From: Cryptosporangium aurantiacum
GTDB taxonomy: Bacteria > Actinomycetota > Actinomycetes > Mycobacteriales > Cryptosporangiaceae
Assembly: GCF_900143005.1 (NCBI RefSeq)
Contig: NZ_FRCS01000003.1
Location: 682,001 to 746,000, forward strand
DNA: 64,000 nucleotides
Direction: 5' to 3'
A program made the translations under genes and the position numbers. The notes below the pieces were generated by a model, which made no database searches, was not told where the DNA came from, and saw only the letters and a program-made list of their open reading frames with translations. How positions within the stretch are numbered: position 1 is the stretch's first letter; each line of letters opens with the position of its first letter. Shown here one piece after another: positions 41,280-57,121 of this stretch.

Positions 41280-44123
41280 TCAGTCGTTGGTGGGCGTCGG
41301 CACCGGCCGGGCGTCCAGGTCCCAGAGGCGGACGACCTTCTCGTCGCCGCCGTCGACCAGCGTCCGGCCGTCCGGGCTGAACGCGACCGCGTCCACGTCC
41401 CCAGGAGCCTTCAGCGGCTGCCCGATCTGCTTGCCGGATGCCACGTCCCACAGGCGGGTCGTGTCGTCGATGCTGGCGGTGGCCAGCGTCCGGCCGTCCG
41501 GGCTGAACGCCAGGCTGTAGATGTTGTCGGTGTGGCCGCGCAGCGCCGACGGGCCGTCGGCCCGCAGCGACCTCGTCTCCACGTCCCAGAGCCGGACGAC
41601 CTTGTCCGAGCCGCCGCCCGCCACCAGCGTGCCGTCCGGGCTGAACGCGACCGAGTCGATGTCGCCCGCCGTCGCCTTCAGCGGATCGCCGATCTGCTTC
41701 TTCGAGGCGACGTCCCAGAGCCGGATCGTGTCGTCCGCGCCGCTGCTGACCACGGTCTTGCCGTCCGGCGAGAACGCGACGCTGTAGACCTCGTCGGTGT
41801 GGCCGGTGAGCCGTGCGATCTCCTTCTGGGACGCGACGTCCCACAGCCGGACCGTGCGGTCACCACCGGAGGAGACGATCGTCCGTCCGTCCGGGGAGAA
41901 CGCCAGCCCGTACGTATCGCCGGCGTGCCCGGTGAGGACGCCGACCTTGGTGCCGGTGTCGGCGTTCCAGAGCCGCACCGCGCCGTCGCCGCCGACCGAA
42001 GCCAGCAGGTTGTTCGTGCTGAATTTGACCCGGTAGACGGTGCCGGTGTGGCCCTTCAGCGGGTCGCCGATCTGGCTGCGGAACTCGGCGTCCCAGAGCC
42101 GCACCGTGCTGTCGCCGCTGCCGGACGCGATCCGGGTCCCGTCCGGGCTGAACGCGACCGCGTTGATCCACTGGGTGTGGCCGGTGAACTTGTGCTGGAC
42201 GGCCGGGGAGGGGCCGATCGCCAGCGGCGTCGCGCTGATGCGCGGGCCCGCGGTGTCGCCGTTCTCGCCGTCGTCGCCGGTGCCGCGGAACCAGTACGCG
42301 CCTGCGCCGATCACCGCGAGCACCAGCAGCACGGCAAGGCCGGCGAGCAGCGGCGTGCGCTTGCGGGCGGGCGGGTCCGGCGGAGCGGCGGGGCGCGCCG
42401 GGCCGTTGCCCGCGGGCGGGTACGGGGCGCCGTAGACCGGGCCGCCGGACGCATTGCCTCGCCACGACGCGTACGGGCTCCCCGAGATCGGGTGCCCCGA
42501 CGCCGGATGCCCGGAGACCGGATGGCCGGAAACGGGGTGACCGGAAACGGGGTGACCCGATACCGGATGACCCGATACCGGGTGGCCGGAGACGGGGTGA
42601 CCGGAGACGGGATACGAGCCGGAGACCGGCGCTGCGCCGGACACCGGGGCCGCGCCGGACACCGGGGCCGCACCGGAGACGGGCGCCGCACCCGAGACCG
42701 GCGCCGCTCCTGAGACGGGCGCCGCACCCGAGACCGGGGTTGCGCCGGGGAGCGGTGGTGCCGACACGACCGGCGGGGCGGACAAGACGGCCGGGGACGT
42801 CCGGTGCCAGTGCTGGACCCGGGTCGGCCCGTCGGTCGTCGCCTCCACCGGCGTCGGCCCGCCCTCGGCGAGCGCCGCCTGGATCCGCCGCGCCCGCTCC
42901 AGGTAGTCCTTGGCCGCGGTCGGCCGCCCCTCCTCCATCATCCCGGCCGCCGACGCGACCAGCGTCGCGGCCAGCCGCTCGGCAGCCGACCGGGTGATCG
43001 GGTGCTGGTCGCCGTAGAGGCCGAGCGCCGACACCGCCACCACGTCCAGCGCCGCCACCGTGTCGAACGCGACCAGCTCGTGCAGCCGCAGCTGCTCGTC
43101 GGCCACCAGCAGCGGCAACAGCTCGTCCCGCGCCTCGACTGCGGTCGGGCGGCCGTGCGGGTCGGGATCCGTGCAGCGCCGCACCAGGCTCGCGACCACC
43201 CGGCCGCGCTCCGGCCCGACCTCGGCGGCCAGCAACTCGTCCAGGTCGGGGCGCAGGCTGTGGCGCAGGTGCGCTTGCAGGTAGGCCAGCGGCGTCTTCT
43301 CCGCCACGTCGTGCGGACGCCGCGCGGTGAGCAGCTCGGCCAGCACCACGCCGAAGCTGAACATGTCCCAGGCCGGGGTCGGGCTGGTGCCCTCGTCCGG
43401 CGGCATGTACGGGATCGTGCCGACCCCACCGGTCGGGTTACCGGTCTGCGGGTCGCGGAGCGTCCCGAGGTCGCCGAGGACGCTGCGCCGGTCCCACCGC
43501 AGGATGTTCGCCGGCTTGACGTCCCGGTGCACGAGGACACCGCGCTGGCCGGTGGGCGTGTGCAGGTGGTGCAGCGCGTCCGCGATGCCGACCAGGTCGA
43601 ACAGGATCTGGTCGGCGGTCAGCCGCGGCGGGTTGGACTTGACCACCTGGTCTTCCAGGTCTTCCCCGCACAGCGGCATGACCTGGACGAGCGCGAGGCA
43701 GACCCCGTCGAACTCGCGACGGAACTCCGGCATCTCGGCCTGCGCGAACACCGGGAGCAGGAACGGGTGGCGCAGCGCGGTCGCGTACCGCTGCTCGCGG
43801 CGCATCCGCTGCAGGACGTCCGGGCGGCCGCGCCGCTCCAGCACGACCCGGATCGCGACCGGGTCACCGGGCTCCCCCGCCTCGGGCAGCGGGTCGAGCA
43901 ACTCGGCGATGAACACCGTGGCCTGCCCGGTGTTCTTGGAGATTCGCTCGCGCAGCAGCACCCGGACGTCCGGCCCGGTGCCGACCGGTAACCGGATCGA
44001 GCGGCCGGTGACCAGCTGGGGCTCGGTGAGCGTCGGGCCGCCCCCACCGCCGCTGACGGGCTCGCCTCCACTGGGGTAGCCGCCGGACGGTGTCTGCCCC
44101 GGGTCGCTCGACCAGCCGCTCAT
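41280..44123 (-). CDS. Membrane Ser/Thr kinase-like protein with WD40 repeats
   Basis: A 947-aa protein. The kinase-like domain (about 45-320) has HRDVKPANIL (His199), DLG at 218-220 in place of DFG, and PPDE at 241-244 in place of APE. The beta-3 VAIK position reads VAIR with Arg92, and no glycine-rich loop is visible. A PVSG repeat linker (about 465-545), a membrane helix (LLAGLAVLLVLAVIGAGAYW) and about seven WD40 repeats (for example LTGHTDEVYSVAFSPDGKTV) follow, forming an external propeller. Either an atypical kinase or a signalling scaffold is possible. Confidence 0.88.
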   Translation of the reverse strand: MSGWSSDPGQTPSGGYPSGGEPVSGGGGGPTLTEPQLVTGRSIRLPVGTGPDVRVLLRERISKNTGQATVFIAELLDPLPEAGEPGDPVAIRVVLERRGRPDVLQRMRREQRYATALRHPFLLPVFAQAEMPEFRREFDGVCLALVQVMPLCGEDLEDQVVKSNPPRLTADQILFDLVGIADALHHLHTPTGQRGVLVHRDVKPANILRWDRRSVLGDLGTLRDPQTGNPTGGVGTIPYMPPDEGTSPTPAWDMFSFGVVLAELLTARRPHDVAEKTPLAYLQAHLRHSLRPDLDELLAAEVGPERGRVVASLVRRCTDPDPHGRPTAVEARDELLPLLVADEQLRLHELVAFDTVAALDVVAVSALGLYGDQHPITRSAAERLAATLVASAAGMMEEGRPTAAKDYLERARRIQAALAEGGPTPVEATTDGPTRVQHWHRTSPAVLSAPPVVSAPPLPGATPVSGAAPVSGAAPVSGAAPVSGAAPVSGAAPVSGAAPVSGSYPVSGHPVSGHPVSGHPVSGHPVSGHPVSGHPVSGHPASGHPISGSPYASWRGNASGGPVYGAPYPPAGNGPARPAAPPDPPARKRTPLLAGLAVLLVLAVIGAGAYWFRGTGDDGENGDTAGPRISATPLAIGPSPAVQHKFTGHTQWINAVAFSPDGTRIASGSGDSTVRLWDAEFRSQIGDPLKGHTGTVYRVKFSTNNLLASVGGDGAVRLWNADTGTKVGVLTGHAGDTYGLAFSPDGRTIVSSGGDRTVRLWDVASQKEIARLTGHTDEVYSVAFSPDGKTVVSSGADDTIRLWDVASKKQIGDPLKATAGDIDSVAFSPDGTLVAGGGSDKVVRLWDVETRSLRADGPSALRGHTDNIYSLAFSPDGRTLATASIDDTTRLWDVASGKQIGQPLKAPGDVDAVAFSPDGRTLVDGGDEKVVRLWDLDARPVPTPTND
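42482..42745 (-). repeat. PVSG coding minisatellite (18-bp and 15-bp units)
   Basis: Inside the kinase linker, one GATPVS and six GAAPVS units (18 bp each) are followed by six GHPVS units and the variants GHPAS and GHPIS (15 bp each). Copies differ mainly at synonymous positions, so the array is old enough to have drifted but is kept in frame. Confidence 0.8.
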
Positions 44124-44318: not shown

Positions 44319-45476
44319 GTGGAGACCGGGAAACAGCGCCGGTGGATCGCGACCGGCGCCGCCGTCGCGCTGCTCGCCCTGCTCGCCCTGCTCGTCGGCG
44401 TGACGTCCGTCCCCGGCGGCCCGGACGAGGGATCGTTCCTGCGGATGGCCGCTCCGGCAGCCCCGGACGCTCCACGGGAACCGACGGTCCGGATCGCCGC
44501 GGTGGGCGACATCATCCTCGGTTCGACACCCCGGCTGCCGCCCCAGGGTGGCCGCACGTTCTTCGACGACGTCCGCCCCGCGCTGACCGGCGACGTCGTG
44601 TCCGGGAACCTGGAGTCGCCGCTGACCGACCGGTCGTACTCGGCGAAGTGCGCGACCCCGCCCGCGGCGAAGGAGAAGAAGCGGCCGAGCGAGCCCCCGA
44701 ACCGCTGTTTCGCGTTCCGGGTCCCGCCGGGATACGCCCGGTGGATCGCGGACGCCGGCTTCACCGTGATGAACGTCGCCAACAACCACGCACGCGACTA
44801 CGGCAACGCCGGGCTGGACGACACCGTCGGGGCGCTGCGCCGGCATCGTGTCGACCACACCGGGTTCGCCGGGCAGATCACCCGGGCGTCGGTGAACGGC
44901 ATCCGGGTCGCGGTGCTCGGGTTCTCCCCCTACGGCTGGACGAACAGCGTCCTCGACATCCCGGCCGCCGCCGCGCTGGTCCGGCGCGCCGCCGCCGATG
45001 CCGACGTCGTCGTCGTCAACACGCACATCGGCGCGGAGGGGTCGGACGCGACACACGTCCGGCCGGGCCCGGAGAACTTCCTGGGCGAGGAGCGCGGTGA
45101 CCCGATCCGGTTCGCTCACGCGGTGGTGGACGCCGGAGCCGACCTGGTCGTGGGACACAGCCCGCACGTGCTGCGCGGGATGGAGTTTTACCGTGGGCGC
45201 CTGATCGCGTACAGCATGGGAAACTTCGCCGGATACCGGACGCTGTCGACGGCCGGTCCGCTCGGCGTCGGCGCCGTGGTGCGCGTCGAACTGCGCGCGG
45301 ACGGCAGCTGGGTCGGCGGGACGCTGGTCGGCACCCGGATGGTCAACGGGGGGCTGCCCGCCCGCGACCCGGGAAATGAGGCGCTGACGCTGGTTCGGCG
45401 GCTGTCCGCTGCCGACTTCGGCCGCACCGCCGTCCAGGTCGAACCCTCCGGCGCCCTCTCCCCGCCCGGAACCTGA
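44319..45476 (+). CDS. CapA-family (PGA_cap) membrane-anchored metallophosphoesterase-like protein
   Basis: A 385-aa protein with one N-terminal membrane anchor (GAAVALLALLALLVGV) and an external calcineurin-like fold. Metal-ligand motifs are VGDIILGS, NLESPLTD, NVANNHARDYG, VNTHIGAEG and VGHSPHVLRG. Named for poly-gamma-glutamate capsule synthesis, but with no capB or capC nearby, so a different envelope role is likely. GTG at 44319 is the start. The 195 bases to the divergent kinase gene show no clear motif. Confidence 0.87.
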   Translation: METGKQRRWIATGAAVALLALLALLVGVTSVPGGPDEGSFLRMAAPAAPDAPREPTVRIAAVGDIILGSTPRLPPQGGRTFFDDVRPALTGDVVSGNLESPLTDRSYSAKCATPPAAKEKKRPSEPPNRCFAFRVPPGYARWIADAGFTVMNVANNHARDYGNAGLDDTVGALRRHRVDHTGFAGQITRASVNGIRVAVLGFSPYGWTNSVLDIPAAAALVRRAAADADVVVVNTHIGAEGSDATHVRPGPENFLGEERGDPIRFAHAVVDAGADLVVGHSPHVLRGMEFYRGRLIAYSMGNFAGYRTLSTAGPLGVGAVVRVELRADGSWVGGTLVGTRMVNGGLPARDPGNEALTLVRRLSAADFGRTAVQVEPSGALSPPGT

Positions 45477-45477
45477 C

Positions 45478-45524
45478 CGCTGTCAAAACGCTGGTGCTAT
45501 CACGTCTACGATTTGCCACCGCTC
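45478..45524. repeat. 47-bp direct repeat, copy A
   Basis: Identical to copy B (46515-46561) at 44 of 47 positions, including 30 consecutive bases beginning CGCTGTCAAAACGCTGGTGC. It contains the stop codon of the AbiEi-like gene (TAG, minus strand, 45506-45508). Confidence 0.85.
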
Positions 45525-46504
45525 GCCTGCGCGCCCCGGAAGCCACGCGGCCGTTCGCGGTAGGTCTGCTCGATGGTCGCGAGCACCTTCTCCGGATGCT
45601 CCCGGATTTCCCGCGGTGTGAAATGCAGCGTCATGATCCCGTACCGAGCGAGCAGATTGTGACGCTCCAACGTGCGCTGCCAGTCAACCGGAGAAGTGTG
45701 GAACTCCTTCGAGTCGGTCTCCAGAGCGAGCCCGACGTCCTGGATCCAGCCGTCCGGCGTTGGCAGCACGGTGCCGTCCGCCGCGATCAGGCGCGGGTTC
45801 CACTGCACCGGCGGCAACACCGAGCTCAGCGCGACCACGTCCCGCATTTCGGCCTCCGGCGCCGACCGCACGCCGTCCTTCAGCTCGGCCACCACTCGAC
45901 GCAACACCGCGCTGTGTGCCGTCGAGCCCTCGGCAAGCTCCCTCTCGAACGCGGACAGGGGCGCGAGTCGCCGCTGAACGATCTCGGCGAGAAAAGCGCG
46001 AATTTCCGTCAGCGGATAGCCGGCCCGTGCCGCATCTGCCCCGGCGCGCGCCACCGAGCAGATTTCCATCGCCGGGAGCAGCCGCGGATGCTGATCAGGC
46101 CGGGCGGTTCGCGTGACGATCACGAAGCCTCGGTGGGATCGGCGCCTCTCGAGCGGGACGAGGATGTGGACGCGGCGATCGTCCGGCGCGTAGCGGACAC
46201 CGTGCCTGCGCAGGGCCGCAGCGCCGGTGATCTGCGTTCCCTCGCCGCCGTACAGCGTCGCCGCGATCAACCGGTGCTCCTCGGTGGGCGGCCCGCTGAA
46301 CGTCGCATAAAGCCCTTTGAGAACCCGTTGCCACTCGCCGCGCGCTATGTGCCAGCGAATAGCGTCATCGGTCACGCCCGCCGCGTTCGCCTGGCTTCGC
46401 AGGAGTAAGCCGGACTGCCGCTCGATCAGTCCCGAGAGATCCACCGCCCTACCGTCGGGCACCGAAAGCCCCGACGCGAGGATGCATCCGCCACCTGTGG
46501 ACAA
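45506..46504 (-). CDS. AbiEi-like antitoxin-domain protein with DUF559-type C-terminus
   Basis: A 332-aa protein. The N-terminal AbiEi-type helix-turn-helix (LLLRSQANAAGVTDDAIRWH, RGEWQRVLKGLYATFSGPP) is followed by a middle region and a nuclease-like C-terminal segment (PDGWIQDVGLALETDSKEFH, RHNLLARYGIMTLHFTPREI) resembling DUF559/Vsr folds. These actinobacterial proteins occur as many solo copies per genome; no AbiEii toxin is present here. TTG at 46504 is the longest start; GTG at 46462 is a good alternative. The whole gene is framed by a 47-bp direct repeat. Confidence 0.75.
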   Translation of the reverse strand: MSTGGGCILASGLSVPDGRAVDLSGLIERQSGLLLRSQANAAGVTDDAIRWHIARGEWQRVLKGLYATFSGPPTEEHRLIAATLYGGEGTQITGAAALRRHGVRYAPDDRRVHILVPLERRRSHRGFVIVTRTARPDQHPRLLPAMEICSVARAGADAARAGYPLTEIRAFLAEIVQRRLAPLSAFERELAEGSTAHSAVLRRVVAELKDGVRSAPEAEMRDVVALSSVLPPVQWNPRLIAADGTVLPTPDGWIQDVGLALETDSKEFHTSPVDWQRTLERHNLLARYGIMTLHFTPREIREHPEKVLATIEQTYRERPRGFRGAQASGGKS

Positions 46505-46514
46505 CCGCGGCGAG

Positions 46515-46561
46515 CGCTGTCAAAACGCTGGTGCTATCACGTCTGCGATTTGACACTGCTC
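46515..46561. repeat. 47-bp direct repeat, copy B
   Basis: The second copy lies 1037 bp from copy A, ending three bases before the peptidase start codon. It is itself an imperfect dyad: TGTCAAAACGC and GCGATTTGACA flank a 16-base centre. Read on the minus strand it contains closely spaced TGA and TAG codons. Confidence 0.85.
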
Positions 46562-46563
46562 CC

Positions 46564-47136
46564 ATGGACGCCTGGTTCGACGCGCACAAACCCGGGCCGG
46601 TCACCGTCGCCGGGCGACCGTTCGCGCAGACCGACGGCACCACCTGCGGCACCACCGCGATCATGCTCGCCCGGGTGCTGGCCGATCCGCAGTACGCCCA
46701 GGAGCTGGCCGACGGCGGCCCGGACGCGTTCACCCAGCGCCTCGTCGCCGAGCAGCGGCGGCTGCACCGGTGGACGAACCGGCTCTGGCCGCAGGCGCTC
46801 GGCACCACTCCGTGGGGTGTGCGGCGCGGGCTGGCCGAGCAGGCGGGCCACCGGTACCGCATCCGATGGACCCGCAGTGCCGACAAAATCGTCGCCGCCG
46901 TCGACGCCGGCTATCCGGTTCCGCTACTGGTCGGCAACTGCTACCCCGCCCACTACCTGCTGGTCGTCGCCCACGAAGCCGACCAGCTGCTCGTTTACAA
47001 CCCGGCAGGTGGGCGCCTGGTGCCGCTCACCGTTGACGACCTGCGCACCGGCCGGCTCTCCGGCGTCACCGCGTACCGCCGGACGTTCGCCGTGCTGCTG
47101 CCGACGCTCAGCCGGTCAGCGGGCCCACGGCCGTGA
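46564..47136 (+). CDS. C39/papain-like cysteine peptidase domain protein
   Basis: A 190-aa soluble protein. The QTDGTTCGTTAIMLA segment places the nucleophile Cys28 after the oxyanion Gln22. His130 in NCYPAHYLLVV and Asn146 in LLVYNPAGG complete a papain-like triad arrangement. There is no signal peptide and no adjacent ABC transporter, unlike bacteriocin-processing C39 proteins, so the substrate is open. ATG at 46564 directly follows direct-repeat copy B, so its native promoter may have been displaced. It overlaps the convergent helicase by 29 bases. Confidence 0.72.
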   Translation: MDAWFDAHKPGPVTVAGRPFAQTDGTTCGTTAIMLARVLADPQYAQELADGGPDAFTQRLVAEQRRLHRWTNRLWPQALGTTPWGVRRGLAEQAGHRYRIRWTRSADKIVAAVDAGYPVPLLVGNCYPAHYLLVVAHEADQLLVYNPAGGRLVPLTVDDLRTGRLSGVTAYRRTFAVLLPTLSRSAGPRP

Positions 47137-55091: not shown

Positions 55092-55799
55092 TCAGTAGGT
55101 GTAACCACCGTCGCCGGCGGCAGCGCTCGGGCTCGCGTCGTCATCGGCCGGCGGCTTCGGCGGCGCCGGCGGGTTCTCCGGAAGGCAGGTGACGTTCTTC
55201 GTGCCGTCGGGCGCGACCGCGAACCAGACCTTGCCGACGTTCTGCCCGGTCCAGGCACCGGGCTTCTTGTCGCCCAGGTAGTAGTACAGCGGCCAGCCCG
55301 CCAGCGTCACCTGCTTGGTGCCGTCGTCGCGCGTCACCTCGCCGACCTCGGAGGCGTCGAGGCCCTCGATCTCCTGGTCGTCCGCGACAACCGGCGGCCA
55401 CACCTTGGCGCAGTCACCGTTGCAGTTGGACGCCGGCGGCTTCGCGGTGTCGTTGTCGAAGCGGTAGAGGATCCACCCCTTCTCGTCGGTGACGACGTCA
55501 CCCATCTTCGCCGTGCGGACGCGCTTCAGCGTCGTCGGCTTCTTCCCCACGTCGTCCGCGGCGCCGGCGTCACCGGCGGCTTCGGAGTCGTCGGCGGCTC
55601 CGGAGTCGGAACCCCCCGCTTCCGGCGTGGGATCCGCGGCGGGAGCCGCAGCCTGCGCAGTGGCCGGAGCGCCGGTGGCGGCGGCGTTCTTGGGGTCGGC
55701 CTCGTACGTCGAGCCACACGCTGTCAACGCAAACGCCGTGAGAAGGCCTGCGGCCGCCAGGGCGGTGCGTGTCGTGACCGAGCGGATGCTCGCGTTCAT
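55092..55799 (-). CDS. Lipoprotein with COG4315-type secreted repeats
   Basis: A 235-aa lipoprotein with lipobox LTAC (TAFALTACGSTYEA), then an Ala/Asp-rich linker to about 90. Two repeats of the secreted-repeat family follow: DEKGWILYRFDNDT with NCNGDCAKVWPPV, and QVTLAGWPLYYYLGDKKPGA. Cys residues in CNGDC probably pair. The family is common in bacterial envelopes and has no assigned activity. ATG at 55799 follows GGGAGA; the longer frame to 55886 lacks a signal-like start. Confidence 0.85.
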   Translation of the reverse strand: MNASIRSVTTRTALAAAGLLTAFALTACGSTYEADPKNAAATGAPATAQAAAPAADPTPEAGGSDSGAADDSEAAGDAGAADDVGKKPTTLKRVRTAKMGDVVTDEKGWILYRFDNDTAKPPASNCNGDCAKVWPPVVADDQEIEGLDASEVGEVTRDDGTKQVTLAGWPLYYYLGDKKPGAWTGQNVGKVWFAVAPDGTKNVTCLPENPPAPPKPPADDDASPSAAAGDGGYTY

Positions 55800-56104
55800 G
55801 ATCTGGTCTCCCGTGTTTCGGAGGCTAGAGCGGCGACCGGTGAGCCGCGCGACCGGGAACACGGACGGTGCACACAGCCGGTTCATAATCGACGGAGAAA
55901 GTTCCCCGGCACCTGCAGGCCTTTAACCGCGGGTGAGCCGATCTTTATCTGTGGCTTAACGATTGCCGGGCGGTGAACTCCCCCGCACTGCGCTCCGTCG
56001 CGCTGATCGAGTCCCGGTAACTCCCTCCGGCCCCTCCCGTAGCGGGGCGGTGGCGTCCACCGGGTCAGACGGAATCCTTTCTTCGCGACGTTCGGGAGCG
56101 GTCG
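55800..56104. other. Divergent intergenic region, no gene
   Basis: 305 bases between the lipoprotein and the DUF4142 gene. It contains an AT-richer centre (TTTAACC, TTTATCTG around 55921-55953) suitable for divergent promoters, but no confident -10/-35 pair, dyad or small reading frame was found. Confidence 0.5.
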
Positions 56105-57121
56105 ATGACCGGTCGGAAAGCAAACGCTCCGGGTGAGCGGCGGGTGCTGAGCACTGTCGCCGAGGCGCTGCCGGGGCAATCACTCACCGTGTTCCTCGCG
56201 CTGATCGCCGCGGGTGCGATCGCGATCGGAGCCACCGCGTTCGGCGGATGGCCGGGTAGCAGTTCGCCCGCGATCGCGGGCGAGCTCGGCGTGAACGACC
56301 CCGCACTGCGGACGAACACCGGCAACCTCGGGGCCGTTCCGGCGGCGGAGTCCAGCGAGGGAACGGACAGCGGCGAGAACGCCGACACCGGTGAAGCCGG
56401 CGAGGGCAACGAGGCCGGCACGGTGCGGGACACCCAGAAGGACAGCCCGGAGGACCCGGTTGTCACGAGCGCGAGCCCGGAGCCGTCCCCGCCGCTGCCG
56501 GACCTGACCACCGCGCGGTCGATCCCGCTCACCGAAGCGGACAAGCAGCTGCTGATCAAGGTCCGGCAGGCCGGTCTGTGGGAGATCCCCACCGGTGAGC
56601 AGGCGCAGCAGAAGGCGGAGAGCCCGATCGTCAAGGCGGTCGGCAGGCAGCTCGCCGCCGACCACCGCAAGCTCGACGACTCGGTCCGCAAGCTGGCCGC
56701 CGACCTCGACGTCGTCCTTCCGAGCACGGCGTCGGAGGCGCAGCTGGGCTGGATGGCCGAGCTGTCGGCGGCGAACGGGGCCGACTACGACCGGCTGTTC
56801 GCCGACCGGCTGCGCGCCGCCCACGGAGCGGTGTTCAACGTCATCGCCCAGGTCCGCACCGGTACCCGGAACCCGATCATCCGGCAGTACGCGCAGATCG
56901 CGAACACCGTCGTCATGCGGCACATGACGCTGCTGGAGAGCACCGGCCTGGTCACGTTCGACGAACTGCCGGCCCCGGTCCTCTCGCAGGCGTCCTCGTC
57001 CGGCTCCGGCGGTGTCGAAGAGAACATGCCCGGCGTCCGGACCGTCCTGATCGTTGCGATGCTCGCCGCCGCCGCGCTCGTGGGCATGGTCAGCATCCGC
57101 CGAGTGCGGCGAGGTGAGTAA
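56105..57121 (+). CDS. DUF4142 membrane protein
   Basis: A 338-aa protein with a membrane helix near the N-terminus (LTVFLALIAAGAIAIGATAF), an acidic Ser/Glu/Gly-rich linker (60-140), and a helical DUF4142 domain (about 145-300). The domain shows LTEADKQLLIKVRQAGLWEI, QLAADHRKLDDSVRKLAADL and YAQIANTVVMRHMTLLEST, a ferritin-like bundle. A C-terminal membrane helix (VLIVAMLAAAALVGMVSI) and a basic tail end it. Function is unknown. It is the first gene of a three-gene coupled run. Confidence 0.87.
   Translation: MTGRKANAPGERRVLSTVAEALPGQSLTVFLALIAAGAIAIGATAFGGWPGSSSPAIAGELGVNDPALRTNTGNLGAVPAAESSEGTDSGENADTGEAGEGNEAGTVRDTQKDSPEDPVVTSASPEPSPPLPDLTTARSIPLTEADKQLLIKVRQAGLWEIPTGEQAQQKAESPIVKAVGRQLAADHRKLDDSVRKLAADLDVVLPSTASEAQLGWMAELSAANGADYDRLFADRLRAAHGAVFNVIAQVRTGTRNPIIRQYAQIANTVVMRHMTLLESTGLVTFDELPAPVLSQASSSGSGGVEENMPGVRTVLIVAMLAAAALVGMVSIRRVRRGE

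Follow-up and report, generated by a model that had tools for sequence, protein, structure and literature searches.

REP palindromes are among the commonest repeats of bacteria. It is reported that in the REP/RAYT system (TnpA_REP, REPtron) palindromes present in tens to hundreds of copies follow a cognate gene, which is itself flanked by the palindrome (PMC3686654, PMC8266576). In the open-access literature, the HUH-type RAYT is the one partner enzyme of REP palindromes that we found. The genes of the present study, in which an AbiEi-type winged helix (wHTH) is joined to a putative Vsr/DUF559-type nuclease (AbiEi-REase genes), currently carry, in actinobacterial genomes, the label of a phage-defence antitoxin or of a DUF559 protein. 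We found such a gene between copies of a genome-dispersed palindrome across actinobacteria, which suggests an unrecognised selfish repeat system whose enzyme differs from the known REP one. Our search of the open-access literature gave no description of such a system and no paper linking DUF559 or AbiEi genes with palindromes.

The window, which is the whole stretch of 64,000 nucleotides that was analysed, comes from a genome of 9.58 Mb (G000). The features of the locus are as follows (window coordinates):

45475 to 46561, no strand: the complete palindrome-nuclease-palindrome unit (~1.09 kb), which two genomes of the same genus (G002, G003) lack at this site
45475 to 45524, no strand: palindromic repeat copy A, on the 3' side of the gene; its hairpin is partly decayed and it holds the gene's stop codon
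45506 to 46444, minus strand: AbiEi-type wHTH + putative Vsr/DUF559-like (MTES_1575-like) nuclease gene, from profiles and alignment with homologues
46494 to 46504, minus strand: TTGTCCACAGG box, a conserved motif before homologues, upstream of the nuclease gene
46512 to 46561, no strand: palindromic repeat copy B, located 5' to the gene and folding imperfectly as the hairpin GAGCGCTGTCAAAACGC...GCGATTTGACACTGCTC with the apical region GGTGCTATCACG

An earlier note on this DNA had described a pair of 47-bp repeats with a single gene between them, and sequence comparison confirmed this: the copies at 45478-45524 and 46515-46561 are identical at 44 of 47 positions and spaced by 1037 bp. The similarity of the pair extends over 61 nt at 87%, and similarity of this degree between the two flanks greatly exceeds chance, being reached by 1 of 546 control genes. 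The stop codon of the gene (minus strand, 45508-45506) lies inside copy A, as the note had stated, and two bases separate the end of copy B from the ATG at 46564. Copy B, which had been called a dyad, indeed folds as a hairpin of -28 kcal/mol; the arms of copy A are partly decayed, and its folding energy is -10 kcal/mol. A longer open reading frame of the gene with a TTG start occupies 45506-46504; judging from the alignment with homologues, the start is most likely the GTG at 46444. The neighbours of the gene encode a PGA_cap-family protein and a protein without a Pfam match, and no AbiEii nucleotidyltransferase toxin gene was found beside it when these neighbours were checked by Pfam. Next to the unit, positions 41280-44123 (minus strand) encode a serine/threonine kinase that has WD40-like repeats and, as a linker, a low-complexity (A/H)PVSG repeat.

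The N-terminal region of the window protein matched AbiEi_4 with 30.7 bits, above the Pfam cut-off of 25, and the PADLOC AbiEi profile with E=7e-17, and in this respect it resembles the type IV AbiE antitoxin AbiEi. It differs from AbiEi in the C-terminal nuclease-like domain fused to it, in the dispersed palindromes that bracket the gene and in having no AbiEii gene alongside. The C-terminal domain, with its conserved acidic and histidine residues, is like those of Vsr-type/MTES_1575 REases and DUF559 nucleases; its MTES_1575 match of 21 bits, however, stays under the Pfam cut-off of 38.2. The residues E217, D251, E262, H269 and R281 (window numbering) are intact and invariant over 13 homologues, as expected for an active nuclease of the PD-(D/E)XK-type superfamily. 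For the nuclease-like C-terminus proposed in the note, the weak scores and the conserved residues together point to a putative nuclease. The MTES_1575 protein that has been described (PMC3710099) differs, as it is a large fusion with HEPN and helicase parts and not a palindrome-bracketed gene. A single-sequence AlphaFold model of the window protein reached a pLDDT of 33, and no solved relative was found in the PDB. Of the 158 genomes of the class, 103 had matches to the family profile, with as many as 16 in one genome, and no phage-borne homologue appeared in the phage records or viral contigs searched. The bracketed protein matched AbiEi_4/MTES_1575 and gave no match to Y1_Tnp, the RAYT-type domain; none was found in the whole window genome either, in a search that detected the positive controls. 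A RAYT acting in trans was therefore rejected, since the window genome is without Y1_Tnp.

The sequence TTGTCCACA at 46504-46496 (minus strand), noticed earlier as a DnaA-box-like motif at the gene's 5' end, turned out to be part of a real conserved box: TTGTCCACAGG at 46504-46494 belongs to a motif with the consensus GTCCACAG. Within 250 bp upstream and in sense orientation, this box precedes 50 of 63 homologues vs 62 of 1785 control genes (p = 4e-54), while downstream of homologues it is rare (2/63). The box is often doubled, in most cases at 18-21 or 28-31 bp and once each at 24, 35, 40 and 64, and such spacing suggests binding on one face of the helix. A doubled box is seen, for example, in the upstream region of homologue L156 (2280-2305). 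The box also precedes some homologues that have no palindrome, so it belongs to the gene and not to the palindrome, and it is probably the operator or promoter element of the nuclease gene, to which the protein or DnaA may bind.

The bracketing of the gene was compared among homologous loci with 400 bp flanks, blastn and a threshold of E<1e-8, using 546 genes of similar size as controls. A matching repeat pair brackets 27 of 46 homologous loci encoding the AbiEi wHTH and the Vsr/DUF559-type nuclease domain, vs 1 of the 546 controls (Fisher p = ~3e-33); of another 20 homologues, most of them more distant, nine were bracketed at the same threshold. About 40% of the homologues have no detectable bracket. 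The compact one-gene nuclease unit between repeats that the note had recognised is therefore general, and bracketing is a property of the nuclease gene family, not of the window locus alone. The bracket repeats are mostly palindromic, about 50-110 bp long, and each locus or lineage has its own sequence, whether in the window genome, in its genus or in other families of the order. The bracketed units measure 1.06-1.41 kb, and their repeat pairs occur in both relative orientations. As one-gene units of ~1.1-1.4 kb with matching ends and short non-autonomous relatives elsewhere, they resemble IS/MITE-like elements with terminal inverted repeats. Unlike in those elements, the ends are themselves palindromic and stand in either relative orientation, there is no known transposase domain, and no target duplication was seen.

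The palindrome of the window was also found elsewhere in its own genome, where all copy counts are lower bounds. The arm pattern GGTGnCAAATC-N20-GATTTGnCACC, searched with up to 3 mismatches, occurs in at least 10 places, and the reversed control pattern in none. Each of these places is an imperfect hairpin of ~50 bp, and paired changes in the arms preserve the stem (CAAATC/GATTTG, CAATTC/GAATTG, CACATC/GATGTG), two-sided changes being present in 6 of 19 consensus pairs. A covariance model of the palindrome found at least 10 strong and 3 weak copies in the window genome and no copy in 40 relatives, three of which are in the same genus; no Rfam family matches it. When the arm pattern was scanned over 85k species, four matches were obtained (an Oscillospiraceae bacterium, Leifsonia, Singulisphaera and a deltaproteobacterium), and these were rejected as a shared repeat since their loops and flanks are unrelated to the window family. 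The repeat gave no match in viral contigs or in phages and one short match (E=0.5) in the plasmid search.

Single sites elsewhere in the genome had been predicted, and at least about 8 further copies outside the window are indeed solo, for example in the gap that follows a branched-chain aminotransferase-like gene and in a gap near lepA/rpsT-like genes (identities from ORF reading). Further copies beside other AbiEi/DUF559 genes had been predicted too, but the remaining AbiEi genes of this genome carry palindromes of other sequence, and the solo copies do not adjoin them. In three other palindromes of this genome, L051 (C28:55896-55953), L101 (C1:1538545) and L112 (C6:65175), the outer arms differ and the inner core GGYGCTATSACRCC is common, as if the arms of these families diverged while the apical core was kept.

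In the same-genus genomes G002 and G003, the PGA_cap gene, a small peptidase-like gene and a helicase gene are found in the same order, with neither the nuclease gene nor the repeat between them; the gap at this empty site is ~60 bp in G002. Since these relatives have the same neighbours without the gene or the repeat, the window unit is lineage-specific here.

Dispersal of the palindromes was also observed in other genomes. Eleven bracket palindromes were searched jointly in eight genomes; as matches on both strands are possible, the following counts are not exact copy numbers: at least 81 each in G028 and G008, 60 in G030, 38 in the window genome, 30 in G013, 10 in G002 and 5 in G003. G001, which has no close homologue of the nuclease gene, had 0 matches, and among the matches listed each genome matches only its own query segments. 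In 400 kb of G030 there are at least 16 palindrome copies, and the orthologous 400 kb of two congeners have 0 (G018) and 2 weak ones (G039). In nine alignments of G030 with its congeners, the element is missing or replaced at the aligned site; no target-site signature was resolvable at these empty sites, where the relatives are ~15% diverged. A de novo census of hairpins in the 400 kb of G030 found the bracket palindrome of the nuclease gene as the commonest family. The 400 kb of G018 (L238-L256; joined positions 86368 and 214933) has a different palindrome family, GATCAAGAGGTTT...AAACCTCTTGATC, with ~5 copies, and its arms resemble a palindrome of G028 (TGATCAAGAGGGG).

A similar arrangement was found in Rhodococcus ruber MSA14 (NZ_CP145323.1), where Rruber_RS29040 (WP_029540190.1, 'hypothetical protein') at 55503-56453 lies between 55-bp palindromes:

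55439 to 55493 (NZ_CP145323.1): R. ruber bracket palindrome flanking Rruber_RS29040
56576 to 56630 (NZ_CP145323.1): R. ruber bracket palindrome flanking Rruber_RS29040

The hairpin census of this 74-kb record gave the bracket palindrome as the commonest and the sole multi-copy hairpin family. Five of its six copies are wholly intergenic, and the intergenic share of the record is 8%.

These palindromes are comparable to those of REP/RAYT in that they are short, imperfect and dispersed mainly between genes as one sequence family, in tens to hundreds of copies, that they flank their single-copy cognate gene (at the 27 of 46 loci vs 1 of 546 controls given above), and that their sequence and their abundance go with the lineage to which the gene belongs. 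On the other hand, they are longer (~50-110 bp), the gene encodes a wHTH and a putative Vsr/DUF559-like nuclease of the PD-(D/E)XK type instead of an HUH Y1 transposase, and the chemistry is predicted to act on duplex rather than single-stranded DNA. The feet of the window family are GAGCG/CGCTC, with no GTAG/CGTC tetranucleotide; the other families were compared by eye. We do not regard the unit as a member of REP/RAYT because the HUH transposase is absent and the GTAG/CGTC foot is unseen in the window family.

We suggest, with a probability of roughly 60%, that this is a REP/RAYT-like system with a PD-(D/E)XK-type nuclease in the place of the HUH transposase. The window unit would act as 'master copy' for a family of REP-like palindromes, and the protein, with its N-terminal AbiEi-type winged helix and its Vsr/DUF559-like C-terminus, is encoded there between two cognate palindromes. 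The protein would most likely recognise its own palindrome, as duplex or as extruded hairpin, and the nuclease would cut at or beside it. Cutting would lead to copying of the palindrome into new, mainly intergenic sites, and the whole palindrome-gene-palindrome unit would be copied less often than the palindrome alone. The solo palindromes would then be non-autonomous offspring. The arrangement, the dispersal and the pairing of palindrome with gene by lineage were observed directly; binding, cutting and mobilisation by the protein are our reading of them.

It is also conceivable, though unlikely, that the palindromes are older and were spread by something else, and that the nuclease gene homes in on them and ends between two copies. 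Brackets together with 'empty' solo sites would likewise arise if a nuclease duplicated the site that it recognises, and the two window copies are mutually closest (identity 0.84, vs 0.79 at most with any solo copy), the pattern expected from target duplication. However, the site without the gene in G002 and G003 has no single palindrome, which the earlier note had expected there, and the palindrome of G030 is nearly absent in its congeners, which means that this repeat is not a long-established one. Moreover, in G030, G028 and G008 each flanking copy has a closer match among the solo copies than in its partner; in G030, for example, identity is 0.98 to a solo copy vs 0.80 to the partner. The flanks are thus members of the palindrome pool of the genome and not fresh duplicates. 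On the evidence of the empty sites in G002 and G003 and of these three genomes, duplication of a target by a single insertion, as suggested in the note, was rejected as a general cause; at the window locus the copies are mutually nearest, so a local duplication may have occurred there.

Somewhat less probable still is a regulatory or structural role, with the hairpins serving as operators or terminators to which the AbiEi wHTH binds; the protein would then not be a mobiliser but would act as a repressor, as an antitoxin or in defence. AbiEi profiles match the window protein, and binding to inverted repeats and autoregulation are known properties of AbiEi antitoxins. Four of the six R. ruber copies are located between convergent genes, where terminators sit. 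On the contrary, the palindromes are found on both sides of the gene, in high copy number, with lineage-specific sequences and beside unrelated genes, and they are missing at the orthologous sites of congeners. In addition, the GTCCACAG box is a better operator candidate, and the window gene has no toxin partner alongside. Coincidence or hitchhiking, in which the gene landed by chance between two copies from an unrelated repeat family, perhaps when repeats recombined, would be enough for one locus in a genome that already has ~10 copies, but it is highly improbable and was refuted as a general explanation by the bracketing of 27/46 loci vs 1/546 controls (Fisher p ~3e-33) in many families with unrelated palindromes.

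The preferred reading, that of a REP/RAYT-like system with a different nuclease, can be extended to the AbiEi-REase genes as a whole. We consider the chances about even that they are mobilisers of a separate REP class, a second and independently evolved system with a restriction-type nuclease as its driver in place of an HUH transposase, which may explain many actinobacterial palindromic repeats. If this is true, the palindromes would have an unrelated nuclease as their partner, and bacterial genomes would be seen to evolve repeat populations of one kind by different chemistry. A very common gene family (matched in 103 of 158 genomes) would be reassigned from presumed antitoxin to repeat mobiliser, and the dispersed palindromes of actinomycetes could be traced back to the gene cognate to them. 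With the gene-palindrome pairs found here, the idea of a mobiliser can be tested directly.

Some loci of the family differ in the form of their repeats. In L159, L160, L161 and L166, AbiEi-REase genes lie between inverted repeats of 37-58 bp that are not palindromic themselves, and these are possibly an IS-like or decayed variant. In L068 (G002:C72), a tandem-repeat array (~2190-2942) follows directly downstream of an AbiEi-REase homologue split in two matches. The longest repeats of all loci were observed in L284 (G086:C23), where the homologue lies between 206-bp inverted repeats (1094-1299 and 2620-2817) of 93% identity.
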